From assembly GCA_029289235.1 (NCBI GenBank), contig JARFTZ010000051.1:1-48130 (forward strand): a DNA stretch of 48,130 nucleotides, written 5' to 3'. Source of the stretch: Gammaproteobacteria bacterium (GTDB lineage Bacteria > Pseudomonadota > Gammaproteobacteria > Burkholderiales > Rhodocyclaceae). Every line of letters begins with the position of its first letter. The first letter of the stretch is position 1. Shown here in pieces: positions 30,008 to 45,813 of the stretch. Below the pieces are notes generated by a model. It saw only the letters and a program-made list of their open reading frames with translations, made no database searches and was not told the DNA's origin. Both the position numbers and the translations under genes were made by a program.

Positions 30008-31405
30008 CTAACGCAGCGCGTCGCCGAGGAAACGTTCGAGGCGCGGATCGAGCGCGTAGGCGACATTGAAGCGCAGCCATGGCGAGGGCTGCATCTGCGG
30101 CCGGAAAATGTTGCCGGGAGCGAACATGATTCCCTCCTGTGCGGCCTGCGTTGCGAGCTGTGCCGAATCGTTGATGCCCGGTGCCTCGGCCCAGACGAAC
30201 ATCCCGCCCTGGGGCTCGGCGTAGACGTTGAGCCCCGCTTTCTCCAGCAGTCGCAGGGTGCGTGCGGTGGCGTCGCCAAGCCGCCCCTGCACCCGCTCCA
30301 GGAACTTGCGGTAGTGGCCTTCGATAAGCATCAGGTAAACGAGCCGTTCGGCGAACTCCGAGGTGGCGACGCAGGTGATGATCTTGACGTCGGTCAGCTT
30401 CGCGGCGAGGTCCATGTCGCAGGCGAGGAAGCCGACGCGCAGGTTGGCCGAGAGCGTCTTCGAGAAGCTGCCGACGTAGATCACCCGGCGCAGCTGGTCG
30501 AGTTGCGCCAGTCGCGTGGCGTTGCCCGGGTGGAAATCGGCGTAGGTGTCGTCCTCGACCACCAGGAAGTTGTGCTTTTCGGCGAGCTGCAGGATCCGGA
30601 AAGCGGTGGCCGGGGTCAGGTTGCAGGCGGTCGGGTTGTGCAGCACGGAGTGGGTGAAGAAGAGCTTGGGCTGGTGTTGGGCCAGCAGGGCTTCGAGCGC
30701 GGCGGTGTCCGGTCCGTCCTGGGTACGCGGCACGCCGATCAGGTTGATGCCCTGCAGGCGCAGCATCGAGAACAGGTTCCAGTAGCCGGGGTCGTCGACG
30801 AAAACGCAGTCGCCGGGTTTGACCAGGTAGCGGAAAACGATGTCGAGTGCCTGCGTGGCGCCCTGGGCCAGGACGATCTGCTTCGGGTCGGCGGCGATGC
30901 CGATCTCGCCGAGCTTGATCTGCAACTGGTCGCGCAGCGGCCGGTAACCACGCGAGGTGCCGTAGTCGACCACACGCGCGTCGGCTCGCCGCGACAGCGC
31001 GCGGATGTTGCGCCGTACGCCTTCCTCGTCGAGCCATTCCGGCGGCAGCCAGCCGGCACCGACCTTGACGTTCTCGCTGGTGTGGTCGAGGCACTGGTAC
31101 AGCACGCCGGTATTGTCGAAGGCCCGTTCCTGCTCGTCGCTGCGGGTCGCCGTCGGCACCGGTTCCTGGCGCGGCGCAACGAAAAAGCCGGCGCCGCGCC
31201 GGGACTGCAGGTAGCCGAGGGCGACCAGCCGGTCGTAGGCCTCGACGACGGTGAAGCGGCTGACACCGTGTGTTTCGGCAAAGCTGCGGATCGGCGGCAC
31301 GCGCATGCCGGGACGCAGCACGCGATCGTCAATCAGTGCGCGAGTCCCGCTCACGATCTGGTCGATGAGCGGCAGGCTCGAGGCGCTGTTCAGGCTCAGT
31401 TGCAT
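30008..31405 (-). CDS. MocR-family transcriptional regulator (GntR HTH + aminotransferase fold)
   Basis: The 465-residue protein joins an N-terminal GntR winged helix (RPGMRVPPIRSFAETHGVSRFTVVEAYDRL, residues about 32-61) to a fold-type I PLP domain. Features of the latter are QGATQALDIVFRYLV, DPGYWN, HNPTACNLTPA, VEDDTYADF and the PLP lysine in YVGSFSKTLSANLRVGF. MocR proteins use PLP or its adducts with amino compounds as effectors. It is divergent from a small lipoprotein gene and upstream of the flavin oxidoreductase. An inverted repeat just upstream (31436-31463) is a likely binding site. Confidence 0.93.
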   Translation of the reverse strand: MQLSLNSASSLPLIDQIVSGTRALIDDRVLRPGMRVPPIRSFAETHGVSRFTVVEAYDRLVALGYLQSRRGAGFFVAPRQEPVPTATRSDEQERAFDNTGVLYQCLDHTSENVKVGAGWLPPEWLDEEGVRRNIRALSRRADARVVDYGTSRGYRPLRDQLQIKLGEIGIAADPKQIVLAQGATQALDIVFRYLVKPGDCVFVDDPGYWNLFSMLRLQGINLIGVPRTQDGPDTAALEALLAQHQPKLFFTHSVLHNPTACNLTPATAFRILQLAEKHNFLVVEDDTYADFHPGNATRLAQLDQLRRVIYVGSFSKTLSANLRVGFLACDMDLAAKLTDVKIITCVATSEFAERLVYLMLIEGHYRKFLERVQGRLGDATARTLRLLEKAGLNVYAEPQGGMFVWAEAPGINDSAQLATQAAQEGIMFAPGNIFRPQMQPSPWLRFNVAYALDPRLERFLGDALR

Positions 31406-31518: not shown

Positions 31519-31551
31519 TCCGGTTGTGTCAATCAGATACCGGAGGACGTG

Positions 31552-32082
31552 ATGGCCCAGCGAAATGTTCCGAACGCCTTGTTACGCGCGATGTGTGTTG
31601 CTTCGGTCATGCTGCTGGCCGCGTGCCAGCCAGCGGACGTTCGCGCGCCGCGTCAGTCCGTCGTCGAATGGGCCGAGCAGCATCTCCTCTTCGTGGCCGA
31701 CGAGCGGTCCAGCCAGGTGCGTGCTTTCCATCTCGGCAACGGGGCGCCGGTGCCGCTGGCGGAGTCGCGCAGTGGCGGGCACGCGCGAGTCCGCGACATG
31801 CAGGTCGATGCGCCGCTCGGACGATTGTGGGTGCTCGGCTACAGCGGCGTGTCGGTCTTCGATGCACGTACGCTCGTGCTCCAGCGCTTCATCCCGCTGG
31901 AAGGGGCGCATCTGTCATCGATGCGTCTGGAGGGAGAACGGGTGCGTCTGTTCTCCGCCTCGGGCGAGGCGGCCGGCGAGATCGACCGCCGCGGCGGTGC
32001 CTTAGGCCTGCTGGCCGCCGGCGTGACTGAAAATGTCCTCGAGCGTGCGGGCATAGTCGTCCCAGGGAAGGCCGTCAACTGA
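31552..32082 (+). CDS. Small putative lipoprotein with propeller-like repeat
   Basis: The 176-residue protein has a lipoprotein signal ending in the lipobox LLAAC near residue 24. The rest resembles part of a beta-propeller, with HLLFVADERSSQVRAFHL, MQVDAPLGRLWVLGYSGVSVFDA and LEGERVRLFSA in strand-like repeats. No family name is certain. GGAGG five bases upstream favours ATG 31552 over GTG 31549. The last 81 bp overlap the 3' end of the D-glutamate cyclase-like gene on the opposite strand, so its tail may be an extension into a former intergenic region. Confidence 0.65.
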   Translation: MAQRNVPNALLRAMCVASVMLLAACQPADVRAPRQSVVEWAEQHLLFVADERSSQVRAFHLGNGAPVPLAESRSGGHARVRDMQVDAPLGRLWVLGYSGVSVFDARTLVLQRFIPLEGAHLSSMRLEGERVRLFSASGEAAGEIDRRGGALGLLAAGVTENVLERAGIVVPGKAVN

Positions 32083-32907
32083 CAGCACCCGCTCCCGAGT
32101 GCAACCATCGACCGCCCCGGCGGCGACCATCGCCTCGACGACGCGGCGTTCTTGTGCGGGAGATCGGAGCAAGGGTTTTCCCGAAAGCAGGGACAGCGCT
32201 GCCGCCAGCGCATAACCGCCCCAGTTCGAGATGCCCGCCGGCACGACGTGGTCTGCCACCGTGGCGCTGAAGATGAGTTCGCCGTGGGTGATCCGTCCGC
32301 CCAGTTGTGCGCGCAAGGATCCCAGTCCGAGTTCGTTGCCGCCGTCGCCGACGGCCAGGGAGGTGAATTTCCGGGGCTCGGGCGGGTCCAGCAAGCGGTC
32401 CGCGCCGGGAATCAGGTCGTCGAGAATTTCCCCGTGCATCGAATAGCGGTGACCGTCGGCTGCGTTGCCGGGCCGCTCGATGGCGAGCACGTGCGTCGGC
32501 GCGAACTCGCCGAGCAAGTTGTCGATGGCGCGGTCAGCGTTGTCCTGAGGAAGGTCGATCTGGACGATCGGTGTCTTGAGTCCGGCCACGGCCGCCCCGG
32601 CGGCGAGCAGCGGGGCGCTGTACTCGTCGGTGACCAGCACGACGTGCTTGCCGAGTTGCTGCAATGCATCGGCGATGTCCAGCGCACCGGGCGGGCCGTC
32701 GGTCTCGCCGGCCAGCACGGCGCGGATGCAGAAACCGGTGACGATGACAATCCGCTCGCCATCCAGGAGCGTCCGGGCCGCCGGATCGAGCGTGTCGAAC
32801 GGGGCGTGCGCGGCCAGTCCGCGGCCACCCGGATCGCGGCGGGCGATTTTCTCGATGGCTCTGATGACATCATGAACGGTTGGCGTGGCCACGGTTTTGC
32901 CTTTCAT
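32002..32907 (-). CDS. D-glutamate cyclase-like protein (DUF4392)
   Basis: The 301-residue protein resembles the DUF4392 domain of mitochondrial D-glutamate cyclase, which converts D-glutamate to 5-oxo-D-proline. Motifs are IVIVTGFCIRAV, ETDGPPGALDIADALQQLG, AIERPGNAADGHRYSMHG and AVGDGGNELGLGS with conserved Asp/Asn residues, then ADHVVPAGISNWGGYALAA. Stand-alone DUF4392 proteins occur in many proteobacteria. It is divergent from the TAXI-TRAP genes across a 431-bp gap that carries NtrC-like sites, which supports an amino-acid nitrogen role. Confidence 0.82.
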   Translation of the reverse strand: MKGKTVATPTVHDVIRAIEKIARRDPGGRGLAAHAPFDTLDPAARTLLDGERIVIVTGFCIRAVLAGETDGPPGALDIADALQQLGKHVVLVTDEYSAPLLAAGAAVAGLKTPIVQIDLPQDNADRAIDNLLGEFAPTHVLAIERPGNAADGHRYSMHGEILDDLIPGADRLLDPPEPRKFTSLAVGDGGNELGLGSLRAQLGGRITHGELIFSATVADHVVPAGISNWGGYALAAALSLLSGKPLLRSPAQERRVVEAMVAAGAVDGCTRERVLSVDGLPWDDYARTLEDIFSHAGGQQA

Positions 32908-32969
32908 CTTGTGCGTAGGTTGCGCTTACTTCGGGGCGGGACTCTAGCATGGCTGGCAAGTGTGGCGTG

Positions 32970-32986
32970 TGCGCCACAGTGGTGCA
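32970..32986. promoter_or_regulatory. NtrC-like enhancer site 1
   Basis: TGCGCCACAGTGGTGCA matches 14 of 17 positions of the enteric NtrC consensus TGCACCAAAATGGTGCA, keeping the GTGC arm and N7 spacing. It lies 31 bp, three helical turns, from site 2. Confidence 0.6.
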
Positions 32987-33000
32987 GCACCGGTGCTGGT

Positions 33001-33017
33001 TGCACCATTGTTGTGCA
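33001..33017. promoter_or_regulatory. NtrC-like enhancer site 2
   Basis: TGCACCATTGTTGTGCA has the exact GCAC-N7-GTGC arms and matches 13 of 17 consensus positions. A separate 12-bp palindrome, AGCACCGGTGCT (32986-32997), sits between the two sites. The centre is about 118 bp upstream of the predicted sigma-54 start. Confidence 0.65.
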
Positions 33018-33100
33018 AGTTGTCTTGCGCCGTTTTGTTTCCTTTTGCGTTTCCCAGAAAAAACAGATTGTTAGGTGGCCTTACCAAAATCCGTTTTTGA

Positions 33101-33116
33101 TGGCATGCAATCTGCT
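33101..33116 (+). promoter_or_regulatory. Sigma-54-type promoter for the TAXI-TRAP operon
   Basis: TGGCATGCAATCTGCT has GG and GC exactly 10 bases apart and matches TGGCAC-N5-TTGCW at nine of eleven fixed positions. The predicted start near 33127 leaves a leader of about 210 nt. The leader up to the ribosome-binding site at 33325-33330 shows no other feature I can name. Confidence 0.6.
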
Positions 33117-33338
33117 AGAGTGGGCCCGGTGTATGGCTTTTCGCCTATTTCTTGCGGTTTTGCGCACAAATCGTCAAGAAAGCGGCATTGAAGTGGTTTT
33201 TGCGCTAATCTCCGCTTGCTTTGCCCGGAAAAATCGCCGATGTTGTTACATCCGTTTCCGGAAACCAACAACAAGCGGGTCATTCTTATCAACCGGCCCT
33301 TTCGCAGGGTCACTGGCACATTTCTGGAGGTATCAAGA

Positions 33339-34307
33339 ATGAAAAAACTTACCGTAATCGCAGCTGCTCTGGCGCTTGGTTCGACCTTGCTCAGCCCGGC
33401 CGCGGTGGCCCAGCAGAAATTCGTGACGATTGGCACCGGTGGCGTGACCGGCGTCTACTATGCGGCGGGCGGCGCCATCTGCCGTCTGATGAACAAGGAT
33501 CGTGCCAAGCACGGCATTCGCTGCTCGGTGGAAAGTACCGCGGCGTCGGTTTACAACGTGAATACCATCAAGGCCGGCGAACTCGACTTCGGTGTTGCCC
33601 AGTCCGACGTCCAGTACAACGCCGTCAAGGGACTGGCGCAGTTCAAGGATGGCGGTCCGCACGCCGATCTGCGCGCTGTTTTCTCGGTCTATCCGGAGCC
33701 GTTGACGGTAGTCGCGCGCAAGGAAGCCGGCGTCACGAAGTTCGAGGATTTCAAGGGCAAGCGTTTCAACGTCGGCAACCCGGGGTCGGGCACCCGCGCG
33801 ACGATCGACATGCTGATGGGTGCGCTGGGCATGAAGACCAGCGACTTTACCCTGACGTCCGAATTGAAGCCTGATGAGCATGGTGCCGCCCTGTGCGACA
33901 ACAAGATCGACGGTTTCGCCTACGTGGTCGGTAGCCCGGCGGCGAACATTCAGGATCCGACGACGACCTGCGGCGCCAAGCTCGTTCCGATTTCCGGACC
34001 GGCGGTCGACAAGCTTGTCAAGGAATACCCGTACTTTGCCCACGCCACGATTCCTGGTGGCATGTACCCCGGAAACCCCGATGCGACGAAGACGTTCGGC
34101 GTGACGGCCAGCTTCGTGACGTCGGCCAAGGTTCCCGACGCCGTGGTCTATGCGATGGTTTCCGCCGTGTTTGACAACTTCGAGGACTTCAAGAAGCTCC
34201 ACCCGGCGTTCGCCAACATCGATCCGAAAGACATGATTTCGAGCGGTCTTTCCGCACCGCTGCATCCGGGCGCAGTCAAGTACTACAAGGAAAAAGGCTG
34301 GATGTAA
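33339..34307 (+). CDS. TAXI-family TRAP transporter solute-binding protein
   Basis: TAXI receptors deliver substrates to fused DctQM permeases. The 322-residue protein has a Sec signal ([19 protein letters not shown] ... VAQQ) and the hallmark [20 protein letters not shown]. It also has [36 protein letters not shown] and a C-terminal [15 protein letters not shown]. Known or proposed TAXI ligands include glutamate/glutamine and 2-oxoglutarate. CTGGAGG lies eight bases before ATG 33339. The gene is divergent from the D-glutamate cyclase-like gene and followed by a strong hairpin before its permease gene. Confidence 0.93.
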
Positions 34308-34344
34308 TTCCAGCCGGCAGGTGAGCGTTACCTGCTGATGATTC

Positions 34345-34378
34345 GACGGCTCCCCAGCGGGAGCCGTCTTGCGTTTTG
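34345..34378 (+). terminator. Terminator or attenuator between receptor and permease genes
   Basis: GACGGCTCCC (34345-34354) and GGGAGCCGTC (34359-34368) form a perfect 10-bp stem with a CAGC loop, followed by TTGCGTTTT. It lies 26 bp before the permease start, so partial readthrough would give more receptor than permease. Confidence 0.75.
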
Positions 34379-34403
34379 CGGTATTTAGTTCAGGGAGCTT
34401 TGC

Positions 34404-36995
34404 GTGAATCAACCCACCACCAACCATCCGGGAATGACCGACGAGCAGATTCGTCGGCTCGTCGAAGAGGCCGATACCGGCGGCCGCAAACCCAGCGGAC
34501 TGGCCGCGAAGGTCGTGATGTACGCGGCGCTGGCCTGGTCGCTGTTCCAGCTCTGGATCGCCTCGCCGCTCCCTTTCTCGCTCGGCATTTTCGTTCTCAA
34601 CGATACGGAATCGCGCGCCATCCACCTGGCCTTCGCGATGTTCCTAGGCTACCTGCTTTTCCCGCCGTTGAAGAGCTCGCCGCGGAAATACATCCCGATC
34701 CAGGACTGGATCCTGGCCATCGTCGCGGCGTTCTGCGCGGCCTATCTGTTCATCTTCTACAAGGATCTATCGGCCCGTCCCGGCCAGCCGATCGGGCTGG
34801 ACCTCGCGGTTGCGGCCGTCGGTCTGCTCATGCTGGTGGAGGTGACCCGCCGTGCGGTCGGTTCGCCGATGGCGATCCTGGTCGTCGTCTTCATCAGCTA
34901 CATCTTCCTCGGCCAGCACATGCCGGACCTGATCGCCCACAAGGGGGCGTCGTTCGCCAAGGGGATGTCGCACCTGTGGTTGTCTACGGAAGGGGTGTTC
35001 GGCGTCGCGCTGGGCGTGTCGTCCGGCTTCATCTTCCTGTTCGTCTTGTTCGGTGCCTTGCTTGACAAGGCCGGCGCGGGGAACTACTTCATCAAGTCGG
35101 CGCTGTCCCTGCTCGGCCACCTGCGTGGTGGTCCGGCCAAGGCGGCGGTCATTTCCTCGGCATGTACCGGAGTGATCTCCGGCAGTTCGATTGCCAATGT
35201 GGTGACGACCGGCACCTTCACCATTCCTCTCATGAAGCGCGTCGGCTATGCGGCGCACAAGGCCGCCTCCTTTGAAACGGCTGCCTCGGTGAACGGGCAG
35301 ATCATGCCTCCCGTGATGGGCGCTGCGGCCTTCCTGATGGTGGAATATGTTGGCATCCCGTACGTGCAGATCATCAAGCACGCGGCCCTGCCGGCGATCA
35401 TCTCGTACATCGCGCTTTTCTACATTGTTCACCTGGAAGCGTGCAAGGCCAACATCCACGGTATTCCGCGTACCAACGTGCCGCCGTTCAAGCAACGCCT
35501 GATCAACTTTTTCCTGGTCACCGGCGGCATCGTGCTGCTGTCCAACGCGGTCTATTTCGGCCTCGGCTGGATCAAGACGGTGACTGGAGGGGCATCCATG
35601 TTCATCATCAGCGCGCTGATGATGGTGGCCTACATCGGTCTTCTCAAGTACGAAGCCGGCTACCCCGAACTGCACCTGGACGATCCGAACGCGCCGATTG
35701 ATTCGCTGCCCGAGCCGGGGCCGACGATCAAGAGCGGTCTGCACTTTTTGCTGCCGGTCGTGGCACTGATCTGGAACCTGATGGTCGAGGAGCTTTCGCC
35801 GGCGTTGTCGGCGTTCTGGGCGATCATGTTCCTGGTGATCATCCTCGTGACGCAGCGCCCGCTGAGCGCGTTGTTCCGCGGCAAGGAAAACGTGAAGGGC
35901 GAAATCCGCGAGGGGCTGTGCGATCTGCATTCCGGGCTGGAAATCGGTGCGCGCAACATGATCGGTGTCGGTATCGCCACCGCGACGGCCGGCATCATCG
36001 TCGGCACCGTGACGCTGACCGGCATCGGCCTGGTGCTCACCGAACTGGTCGAGGCGATTTCGGGCGGCAACCTGCTGGCGATGTTGATGCTGGTGGCTGT
36101 CGCTTCGCTGATTCTCGGGATGGGCATGCCGACGACGGCCAACTACATCATCGTGTCCACGCTGATGGCGCCGGTGGTCGTTGAGCTGGGATCGCAGGCC
36201 GGGCTGATCGTGCCGCTGATCGCAGTGCACCTCTTCGTTTTCTACTTCGGCATCATGGCCGACGTGACGCCGCCGGTGGGTCTTGCCGCCTATGCCGCGG
36301 CGGGCATCGCCAAGGCCGATCCGATGAAGACCGGTTTCACCGCGTTCTGGTACAGCATCCGTACGGCGATCCTGCCATTCATGTTCATCTACAACACCCA
36401 ACTGTTGCTGATCGGCATCGACTCGGTTTTCCACCTGCTGATCACCATCGCCTCGGCGATCGTGGCCAACCTCATCTTTGTGGCCGCTTCACAACACTAT
36501 TTCCTGACGCGCAACCGCTGGTACGAAACTGCCGGGTTGTTGTTCATCGCCTTCGCGTTGTTCCGTCCGGGCTTCTTCATGAACGACTTCTTCCCTCCTT
36601 ACGAGAAGGTCTCGGCGGCGCAGATGCTGCAGGTGGTCGAACAGGCTCCGAAGAATGGTCATCTGCGCGTGTGGCTCGAAGGCGTCGACATGAACGGCCG
36701 GGACGTCAAGCGCGGCGTGTTGCTGCAACTCGGTGATACCGGTCCGGCGCGCCAGCGGCTCGACCAGTTCGGCCTGCGGGTCATCCCGTCCGGTGAACAG
36801 TTCGACATCGTGCAGGTGAAGTTCGGCAGCAAGGCCGAAAAAGCCGGCGTCGAGCAGGGCTACAAGATCACTGCGCTGGAAAAGGAAACCGGCAACCCGG
36901 CGAAGGAGTGGTTCTACGTGCCGACGCTCGGCCTGCTCGGCCTGATCGTTCTGCTGCAGCGCAGACGGATCGCCAAGGCGACCGTGGCCGCCTAG
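34404..36995 (+). CDS. Fused TRAP transporter permease (DctQM, 4TM/12TM) with C-terminal DUF3394-like domain
   Basis: The 863-residue membrane protein fuses the small (DctQ-like) and large (DctM) TRAP subunits, the usual partner of TAXI receptors. The first four spans (about residues 30-170) form the Q part. The DctM part has GVISGSSIANVVTTGTFTIP and a second related segment, LILGMGMPTTANYIIVST, then VTPPVGLAAYAAAGIAKADP. The last 150 residues carry a soluble PDZ/DUF3394-like domain (FGSKAEKAGVEQGYKI) and a final membrane helix, GLLGLIVLLQRRR. The start is GTG 34404, with AGGGAG upstream; ATG 34434 is the alternative. Confidence 0.93.
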   Translation: MNQPTTNHPGMTDEQIRRLVEEADTGGRKPSGLAAKVVMYAALAWSLFQLWIASPLPFSLGIFVLNDTESRAIHLAFAMFLGYLLFPPLKSSPRKYIPIQDWILAIVAAFCAAYLFIFYKDLSARPGQPIGLDLAVAAVGLLMLVEVTRRAVGSPMAILVVVFISYIFLGQHMPDLIAHKGASFAKGMSHLWLSTEGVFGVALGVSSGFIFLFVLFGALLDKAGAGNYFIKSALSLLGHLRGGPAKAAVISSACTGVISGSSIANVVTTGTFTIPLMKRVGYAAHKAASFETAASVNGQIMPPVMGAAAFLMVEYVGIPYVQIIKHAALPAIISYIALFYIVHLEACKANIHGIPRTNVPPFKQRLINFFLVTGGIVLLSNAVYFGLGWIKTVTGGASMFIISALMMVAYIGLLKYEAGYPELHLDDPNAPIDSLPEPGPTIKSGLHFLLPVVALIWNLMVEELSPALSAFWAIMFLVIILVTQRPLSALFRGKENVKGEIREGLCDLHSGLEIGARNMIGVGIATATAGIIVGTVTLTGIGLVLTELVEAISGGNLLAMLMLVAVASLILGMGMPTTANYIIVSTLMAPVVVELGSQAGLIVPLIAVHLFVFYFGIMADVTPPVGLAAYAAAGIAKADPMKTGFTAFWYSIRTAILPFMFIYNTQLLLIGIDSVFHLLITIASAIVANLIFVAASQHYFLTRNRWYETAGLLFIAFALFRPGFFMNDFFPPYEKVSAAQMLQVVEQAPKNGHLRVWLEGVDMNGRDVKRGVLLQLGDTGPARQRLDQFGLRVIPSGEQFDIVQVKFGSKAEKAGVEQGYKITALEKETGNPAKEWFYVPTLGLLGLIVLLQRRRIAKATVAA

Positions 36996-44991: not shown

Positions 44992-45813
44992 ATGGCGACT
45001 TACGCGATCGGCGACATCCAGGGCTGCTTCGATGCCTTCTCGCGGCTGCTCGATTGCTGCGCCTTCGATCCTGCTGGCGATCGTCTCTGGCTGGTCGGCG
45101 ATCTCGTCAACCGCGGCCCCCGTTCGCTGGAGACGCTGCGCTTCGTCCGCGACCTCGGCGAGGCGGCGGTGACGGTACTCGGCAACCACGACCTGTCGCT
45201 GCTGATGGCCGCCGAAGGCTTCGGTAAGCGCAGCAAGGGCGATACCTTCGACGATGTTCTCGGTGCTCCGGATCGCGATGAACTGCTTTCCTGGCTGCGC
45301 CGGCAACCCTTGTGCCACGTCGAGAACGGCTTCTGTCTGGTGCATGCCGGTTTGCTGCCGCAGTGGTCGGTGGCGCAGGCCCGGCAGCTGGCGCGCGAGG
45401 TGGAAGCGGCGTTGGCCGGCGACGACTGGCACGATTTCCTGGCGCATCTGTGGGGCAACGAACCGGACGCCTGGCGCGACGACCTCGTCGGCTGGCCGCG
45501 CCTGCGGGTGATCGTCAATGCCATGACGCGGATGCGCTTTTGCACCCCGGACGGGGTCATGGACATGCATGTCAAGGGCGAGGTCGAGAAGGCGCCGGCC
45601 GGCTGCGTGCCGTGGTTCGATGCTCCCGGACGGCGCAGCGCGGCGACGACGCTGGTGACCGGACACTGGTCGGCGCTCGGACTGAAGATTGCGCCGAACC
45701 TGCTGGCGCTCGATTCCGGCTGCCTGTGGGGTGGCCCGCTGACGGCGGTCAGGCTGGAGGATCGGGCGGTATTTCAGGTTCCGTGCGCGCCGGAGGAAAC
45801 CCGAGCCTGGTAG
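44992..45813 (+). CDS. apaH: Diadenosine tetraphosphatase ApaH
   Basis: ApaH symmetrically hydrolyses Ap4A to two ADP and also removes Np4 caps from RNA. The 273-residue metallophosphatase has all core motifs: [12 protein letters not shown] at the start, [26 protein letters not shown] and a later [10 protein letters not shown], with a C-terminal TGHWSALGL. It begins one base after the dehydratase stop. The last 65 bp overlap the acyltransferase gene on the other strand. Confidence 0.95.

Follow-up and report, generated by a model that had tools for sequence, protein, structure and literature searches.

The window analysed here, a 48,130-nucleotide stretch of a genome from the genus Propionivibrio, carries what is probably a nitrogen-starvation promoter driving a glutamate-type importer of the TAXI-TRAP class. 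Under a shortage of fixed nitrogen, NtrC in its phosphorylated form would occupy two palindromes (32970–33017), centred at about −149 and −118, and from there activate sigma-54 RNA polymerase at 33101–33116. Transcription from about 33127 would then raise the levels of a binding protein (33339–34307) and a fused permease (34404–36995). The imported ligand would most likely be L-glutamate, perhaps with glutamine, D-glutamate, or 5-oxoproline taken up at lower affinity. A DUF4392 enzyme and a DUF1445 protein encoded elsewhere would probably carry out glutamate or 5-oxoproline chemistry, and the genome's own PxpA, with its PxpB/C-like neighbours, could close a 5-oxoproline route. We infer binding, transcription, ligand, direction of transport, and enzyme activity from the sequence.

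The putative promoter lies in a 431-bp gap (32908–33338) between the divergently oriented DUF4392 and TAXI genes. Two NtrC-type palindromes are found on its plus strand, TGCGCCACAGTGGTGCA at 32970–32986 and TGCACCATTGTTGTGCA at 33001–33017, each with 11 of the 12 consensus bases and together 31 bp apart from start to start. They are followed on the same strand by a sigma-54 −24/−12 element of the form GG-N10-GC, TGGCATGCAATCTGCT at 33101–33116, which has 15 of the 16 consensus positions. The scans used TGCACC-N5-GGTGCA as the NtrC consensus and TGGCAYRNNNNTTGCW as the sigma-54 consensus. On re-reading the sequence, the letters, coordinates, 31-bp spacing, and 431-bp gap given in the initial annotation were all correct, and the site centres it had proposed agree with a predicted transcription start near 33127. 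We rejected sigma-54 control for the DUF4392 gene, since the minus strand of the gap has no sigma-54 element directed at it. No RNA element in 32500–34500 matched Rfam at E 1.

The two palindromes are the sole places in the 48-kb window with at most one mismatch to the NtrC consensus. Weak matches of both kinds were unenriched in the window (38 NtrC-like matches at up to three mismatches, 30.9 expected; 10 sigma-54 matches, 19.1 expected), so the support comes from site quality and arrangement, not from counts. Three further places in the window have one sigma-54 mismatch, one of which (45302–45317, minus strand) keeps both the GG and the GC. We also scored both strands of the window with matrices, as the initial annotation had proposed for the gap. 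The matrices were trained on 33 same-pattern promoter loci of related genomes, with two TAXI loci excluded, and the test is not fully independent because the training loci were picked by a fixed-letter pattern. The downstream palindrome ranked first and the upstream one second (24.4 and 15.9 bits; next match 8.4), and the sigma-54 element ranked first among its kind (18.9 bits; next match 12.3).

A strict pattern, defined as one NtrC palindrome followed after 80 to 110 bp by a sigma-54 element, occurs at a single place in the 3.8-Mb genome, namely the 32908–33338 gap. Across the 28 genomes of the genus it occurs at five places and the reversed pattern at none, with the limitation that a reversed palindrome makes a less than perfect control (228 versus 72 per strand at up to two mismatches). 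At the family level, 77 of 297 genomes matched the strict pattern, with no reversed pattern among the matches listed. We examined 35 pattern loci, comprising the five from the genus and 30 of the more numerous family places. Nitrogen-type genes lie downstream in 25 of them: GlnA in 10, a TorF porin in eight, GlnK in one, and an NrtA-like receptor in six. By family match this receptor is NMT1_2, which we read as NrtA-like. The TorF loci all include glnK (8/8), and seven of the eight include part of amtB. The remaining loci precede a TAXI gene (two, in our genome and in G003), a LivK-like receptor (one), or no assigned gene (seven, four of which had no downstream frame called). In G022, the strict pattern (L203 module) is ahead of a LivK-like receptor gene.

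The genome itself encodes NtrC (703.6 bits; cut-off 558.6), RpoN, and P-II proteins. Its own TorF-glnK-amtB genes are preceded by two NtrC-like sites (two and three mismatches) and then a one-mismatch sigma-54 element, and the NtrC-like sites are 31 bp apart, the same spacing as in the TAXI gap. Ten places in the whole genome have at most one NtrC mismatch, two of them in the TAXI gap; a single palindrome is not specific, because the one perfect NtrC match in the genome falls within the ntrC gene. Site quality, matrix scores, and the genome-unique pattern support the predicted NtrC/sigma-54 sites as directed at the transporter gene, and so lend sequence support to the control that had been proposed for it.

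The TAXI gene (33339–34307, plus strand) encodes a TRAP solute-binding protein of 322 aa (TIGR02122, 351.0 bits; cut-off 84.35). It adjoins a gene with a GTG start (34404–36995, plus strand) for a fused DctQM-type TRAP membrane component of 863 aa (TIGR02123, 695 bits; cut-off 320.65) with DctM and a C-terminal DUF3394; the TIGR02122 and TIGR02123 matches are both above cut-off. Between the two genes, at 34345–34368, a perfect 10-bp hairpin was seen by eye, which could set the receptor:permease expression ratio. G006 carries two TAXI receptor genes in a row, the extra one (58% identity) being immediately upstream (L136, 7175–8155).

The receptor is approximately 55% identical to VcGluP of Vibrio cholerae. 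In a gap-free alignment, from which we infer an offset of five residues, its pocket residues Y40, S70, Q88, E120, Y195, and V196 correspond to VcGluP Y45, S75, Q93, E125, Y200, and M201. Five of the six are identical, and the sole change is from Met201 in VcGluP to Val (V196). A structural model of the receptor (pLDDT 80) matched the fold of 9ibo/8s4j, and by fold no characterised relative is nearer than VcGluP. By sequence, the closest solved protein is PDB 9oz4, which is absent among the 50 fold matches listed and for which our literature search found no ligand. VcGluP is reported, in the part of the study drawn on here, to prefer L-glutamate, to bind D-glutamate with a Kd of 24.5 μM and L-pyroglutamate with a Kd of 50 μM (more than 750-fold weaker than L-glutamate), and to be affected fairly little by alanine substitution of M201 (PMC11574862). 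The initial annotation had called TAXI-TRAP ligands mostly unknown; because the VcGluP pocket is shared and VcGluP prefers L-glutamate, a ligand can be predicted after all. L-glutamate is the likeliest candidate, and use of D-glutamate or 5-oxoproline by the transporter system is possible, pocket identity leaving the selectivity between L- and D-glutamate unsettled.

The divergent gene (32002–32907, minus strand) encodes a stand-alone DUF4392/GLUCM-like_C protein of 301 aa (PF14336, 257.1 bits). It is homologous over 244 residues to TON_0340 of Thermococcus onnurineus and keeps the acidic motifs: TON_0340 E59, D61, E115, D122, D157, and E161 face identical residues (numbering by eye from the alignment). 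TON_0340, likewise a stand-alone DUF4392 protein but archaeal, is described in the cited excerpt as a weak Mn2+-dependent phosphatase, and of the six residues the excerpt names just E59 and D157 among the published ones (PMC5132392). Animal D-glutamate cyclase has two halves, of which DUF4392 corresponds to the C-terminal one only and DUF1445 to the other. Vertebrate DGLUCY (C14orf159) carries both domains fused on one chain (PMC5132392, in the portion cited), and the mouse two-domain protein is reported to convert D-glutamate to 5-oxo-D-proline (PMC5339696, likewise in part). The window protein, in contrast, holds PF14336 only, and DUF1445 (PF07286) is on another contig, C1. The initial description of the DUF4392 protein as a D-glutamate cyclase is thus borne out in that it belongs to the same family as the C-terminal domain of DGLUCY, but not in its domain content, as the DUF1445 domain is absent from it.

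On contig C1, the neighbours of the DUF1445 gene are a LysR regulator, an amidase, and a TRAP system of the DctP type. No Ntr pair was found in this DUF1445 stretch, nor over the initial 360 bp of L236, ahead of the genome's own PxpC-like gene. Back in the window, a small lipoprotein-like ORF (31549–32082, plus strand; no family match) overlaps the 3' end of the DUF4392 gene, and relatives of it that are 47% to 57% identical lie near DUF4392 in G006, G010, G018, and G027. A MocR-type regulator (GntR + Aminotran_1_2; 30008–31405, minus strand), of a cluster found near DUF4392 in the same four genomes, is a possible local regulator.

Relatives of the TAXI receptor (E 1e-60; searched in a sample of 148 genomes) were found in 13 of the 28 genus genomes, our own included. 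DUF4392 and DUF1445 each occur in 17 of the 28, in sets that are not identical. DUF4392 was found in six of 199 family genomes, five of which belong to the genus, and in three of 369 class genomes. The initial annotation had raised the conservation of the gene pair, and it holds within the genus, where DUF4392 is at most 7 kb from TAXI in 10 of the 13 TAXI-bearing genomes (G000, G003, G005, G006, G010, G013, G018, G019, G022, and G027), in varying arrangements; it does not hold outside the genus, where no DUF4392 was found in up to 6 kb to either side of the TAXI loci. The other three are G016 (DUF4392 not found, TAXI at the end of a contig), G023 (DUF4392 not found), and G026, in which DUF4392 adjoins a DctP-type TRAP. 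Shared descent accounts for part of these linkage counts. A wider TAXI-DUF4392 partnership was rejected, given the rarity of DUF4392 in the class and its absence from the non-genus TAXI loci.

Other neighbourhoods in relatives concern glutamate and 5-oxoproline. In G009, the gene that DUF4392 faces is that of a glutamate/aspartate ABC receptor (NF008063, 462 bits; cut-off 375), and in G013 genes of the same clusters are found next to TAXI and DUF4392; both loci have a one-mismatch sigma-54 element and a three-mismatch NtrC-like site upstream. DUF1445 and DUF4392 are adjacent in six congeners (G006, G010, G012, G019, G020, and G022). In G004, DUF1445 is accompanied by PxpA, an asparaginase, and (by eye) PxpB/C-like genes; in G013, G015, and G025, PxpA is near it. 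By eye, DUF4392 directly follows PxpB/PxpC-like genes in G636 and G731, two genomes of another genus (L237 and L238, 1480–3780), and this order links DUF4392 to 5-oxoprolinase independently.

These arrangements bear on a different reading of the transporter, in which TAXI would mainly import 5-oxoproline or D-glutamate (e.g., released as peptidoglycan is turned over), and a two-part D-glutamate cyclase formed by DUF4392 and DUF1445 would feed 5-oxoprolinase. In favour of the D-glutamate or 5-oxoproline reading are the six congeners with neighbouring DUF1445 and DUF4392 genes, whose domains are fused in DGLUCY, the PxpA and PxpB/PxpC-like neighbours in relatives, the presence of PxpA with PxpB/C-like neighbours in our genome, and the weak binding of D-glutamate and L-pyroglutamate reported for VcGluP. 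Against it, VcGluP strongly favours L-glutamate and the pocket is nearly identical (PMC11574862, as far as cited above); the mouse cyclase yields 5-oxo-D-proline (PMC5339696, in the part cited), and PxpABC is known to act on the L-form; DUF1445 is not at the TAXI locus; and the TON_0340 result points to a phosphatase (PMC5132392, in the excerpt cited). On balance we regard this reading as unlikely, though it is the strongest of the alternatives to import of L-glutamate. A scavenging system for D-glutamate, 5-oxoproline, or a related amino acid had been suggested initially; the glutamate-family role is supported by sequence, whereas the 5-oxoproline link is backed by neighbours in relatives and not by the genome's own locus. 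The larger construction, a Propionivibrio D-glutamate/5-oxoproline salvage module governed by NtrC and made up of a glutamate importer (TAXI-TRAP or another), a two-gene cyclase (DUF1445 + DUF4392), and 5-oxoprolinase, is offered tentatively and with considerable doubt.

Returning to nitrogen control of a glutamate-type importer, we searched for relaxed NtrC + sigma-54 pairs in 555 kb around TAXI, DUF4392, and DUF1445 genes (41 sequences, made up of 40 loci plus the window; G010 and G022 each appear twice). Such a pair lies upstream of TAXI in G000, G003, G013, G018, and G022. Among the 10 genus genomes with a linked DUF4392 (our own included), five have the relaxed pair, two a sigma-54 element alone, and three neither. 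G003, G013, G018, and G022 have a single NtrC site (one or two mismatches), not two. Sigma-54-like elements with one or two mismatches are found upstream of TAXI in these four genomes and in G010 and G027; the G010 element is at −127 and its NtrC sites all have three mismatches, and G027 has kept the sigma-54 element beside NtrC sequences that are just half-like. G005, G006, and G019 have no NtrC + sigma-54 pair upstream of TAXI, though DUF4392 is nearby. Outside the genus, none of 69 TAXI loci has the pair in the up to 500 bp scanned upstream, and the paralogous TAXI copies G018:C101 and G027:C23 are without NtrC sites. The conservation of the sites that the initial annotation had called for was found in half of the linked genus genomes (5/10) and in no non-genus locus (0/69). 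Because it is conserved in part of one genus, the promoter wiring seems genuine, though young or labile.

Elsewhere in the 555 kb, pairs were seen only in G004 and G011, beside DUF1445, and the reversed control gave none. In both (G004, L193 8229–11130; G011, L191 3311–4400), the pair precedes a protein of 218 to 262 aa and an asparaginase. The small protein at the G004 pair has no Pfam match, and PxpA is also encoded there.

Different elements were seen in some other TAXI loci. In the Thauera/Parazoarcus relatives L061, L064, and L092, TTCGGA-type palindromes and a sigma-54-like element lie 60 to 230 bp upstream of TAXI, and by eye the immediately preceding gene ends in a Fis-like helix-turn-helix. 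In G018 and G027, the paralogous TAXI copies (L047 and L048) likewise have TTCGGA-type palindromes and a sigma-54-like element in this interval. Two origins of sigma-54 control, with different activators, are possible for this TAXI family. These loci, together with the nearby MocR gene and 18 genome matches scoring 260 bits or more against the NtrC model (NtrC among them), allow for the window promoter being served by another enhancer-binding protein, or for its palindromes being bound by the local MocR regulator. We consider this improbable: the letters and spacing of the palindromes are those of the NtrC sites of the family's glnA/glnK operons, and no TTCGGA palindrome was seen in the 400 bp upstream of the window TAXI gene.

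A second conserved element, TTTTGCGCTAATCT (33198–33211, plus strand), lies 3' of the sigma-54 element and 141 bp before the TAXI start. This 14-mer, taken from the window, is matched at 11 or more of its 14 positions in six of 11 other Propionivibrio upstream regions (shuffles, 3/600), including genomes in which the sigma-54 element is missing (G005, G006, and G019), and at the same threshold in eight of 69 non-genus relatives, mostly as TTTTGTGCAAAGCT at a similar position. It is a possible basal promoter or operator. That it may act as a promoter independent of sigma-54 counts against the NtrC/sigma-54 reading, as does the entry of a Pseudomonas stutzeri TAXI receptor promoter in the cited table of a screen aimed at promoters that are strong and constitutive (PMC10155442). 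That the NtrC and sigma-54 sites are chance matches or decayed remnants, with the gene expressed from a sigma-70 promoter near 33198–33211, would fit the spread of this element and the lack of the pair in several orthologues, but it is very improbable: we rejected chance sites on the strength of the strict pattern being unique in the genome, the ranking by matrices, and the absence of reversed-pattern matches among those listed, the sigma-54 element is retained in six other congeners, and 32860–33420 has no match to the sigma-70 consensus.

The NtrC-governed importer proposed here combines known kinds of parts in a new way. In E. coli, NtrC ChIP peaks are listed at gltIJKL and glnHPQ (PMC4066584, Table 1), and gltIJKL is likewise a glutamate importer under NtrC control in nitrogen limitation, according to the part of that study cited; it is an ABC transporter for glutamate and aspartate, whereas the window has a secondary transporter of the TAXI-TRAP kind and, divergent from it, a DUF4392 gene. 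VcGluP-VcGluQM of Vibrio cholerae (VC0430-VC0429) shares the TAXI receptor, at the identity and with the pocket given above, and the fused permease; it differs in a downstream UspA gene, and Ntr control is not mentioned in the cited portion of the study (PMC11574862). The two receptors differ further at the one pocket position that is Met201 there and Val here. A third comparison is with Bacillus subtilis, in which we take YcsI to be a DUF1445 protein; the genome has one DUF1445 match and no PF14336 match, and we know of no TAXI-TRAP or DUF4392 gene in its pxpABC operon. That operon, pxpABC-ycsG-ycsI, joins 5-oxoprolinase genes with ycsI and an Nramp-type Mn2+ importer, and its control by TnrA in response to nitrogen was judged plausible by the authors in the passage cited (PMC10448178). 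The DUF1445, PxpA, asparaginase, and Nramp genes of G015 resemble it. Our literature search (TAXI with nitrogen or NtrC, TAXI glutamate receptors, Propionivibrio TRAP, and the DUF1445 cyclase), which covered mostly literature available without subscription, turned up no such wiring; the sole paper in it that joins NtrC, glutamate, and TAXI names a TAXI gene just in a promoter table, as far as its cited part goes (PMC10155442).

The finding places a TAXI-TRAP transporter, of a class with few characterised ligands, in a likely Ntr regulon, and in bacteria it connects DUF4392 and DUF1445 with 5-oxoprolinase and the import of glutamate. What the domains of animal D-glutamate cyclase do could then be tested in a bacterial host that offers an inducible genetic handle. 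If the salvage module is true, glutamate locked in peptidoglycan, or pyroglutamate, would become a nitrogen source for these bacteria, and bacterial DUF4392 and DUF1445 would gain a function.
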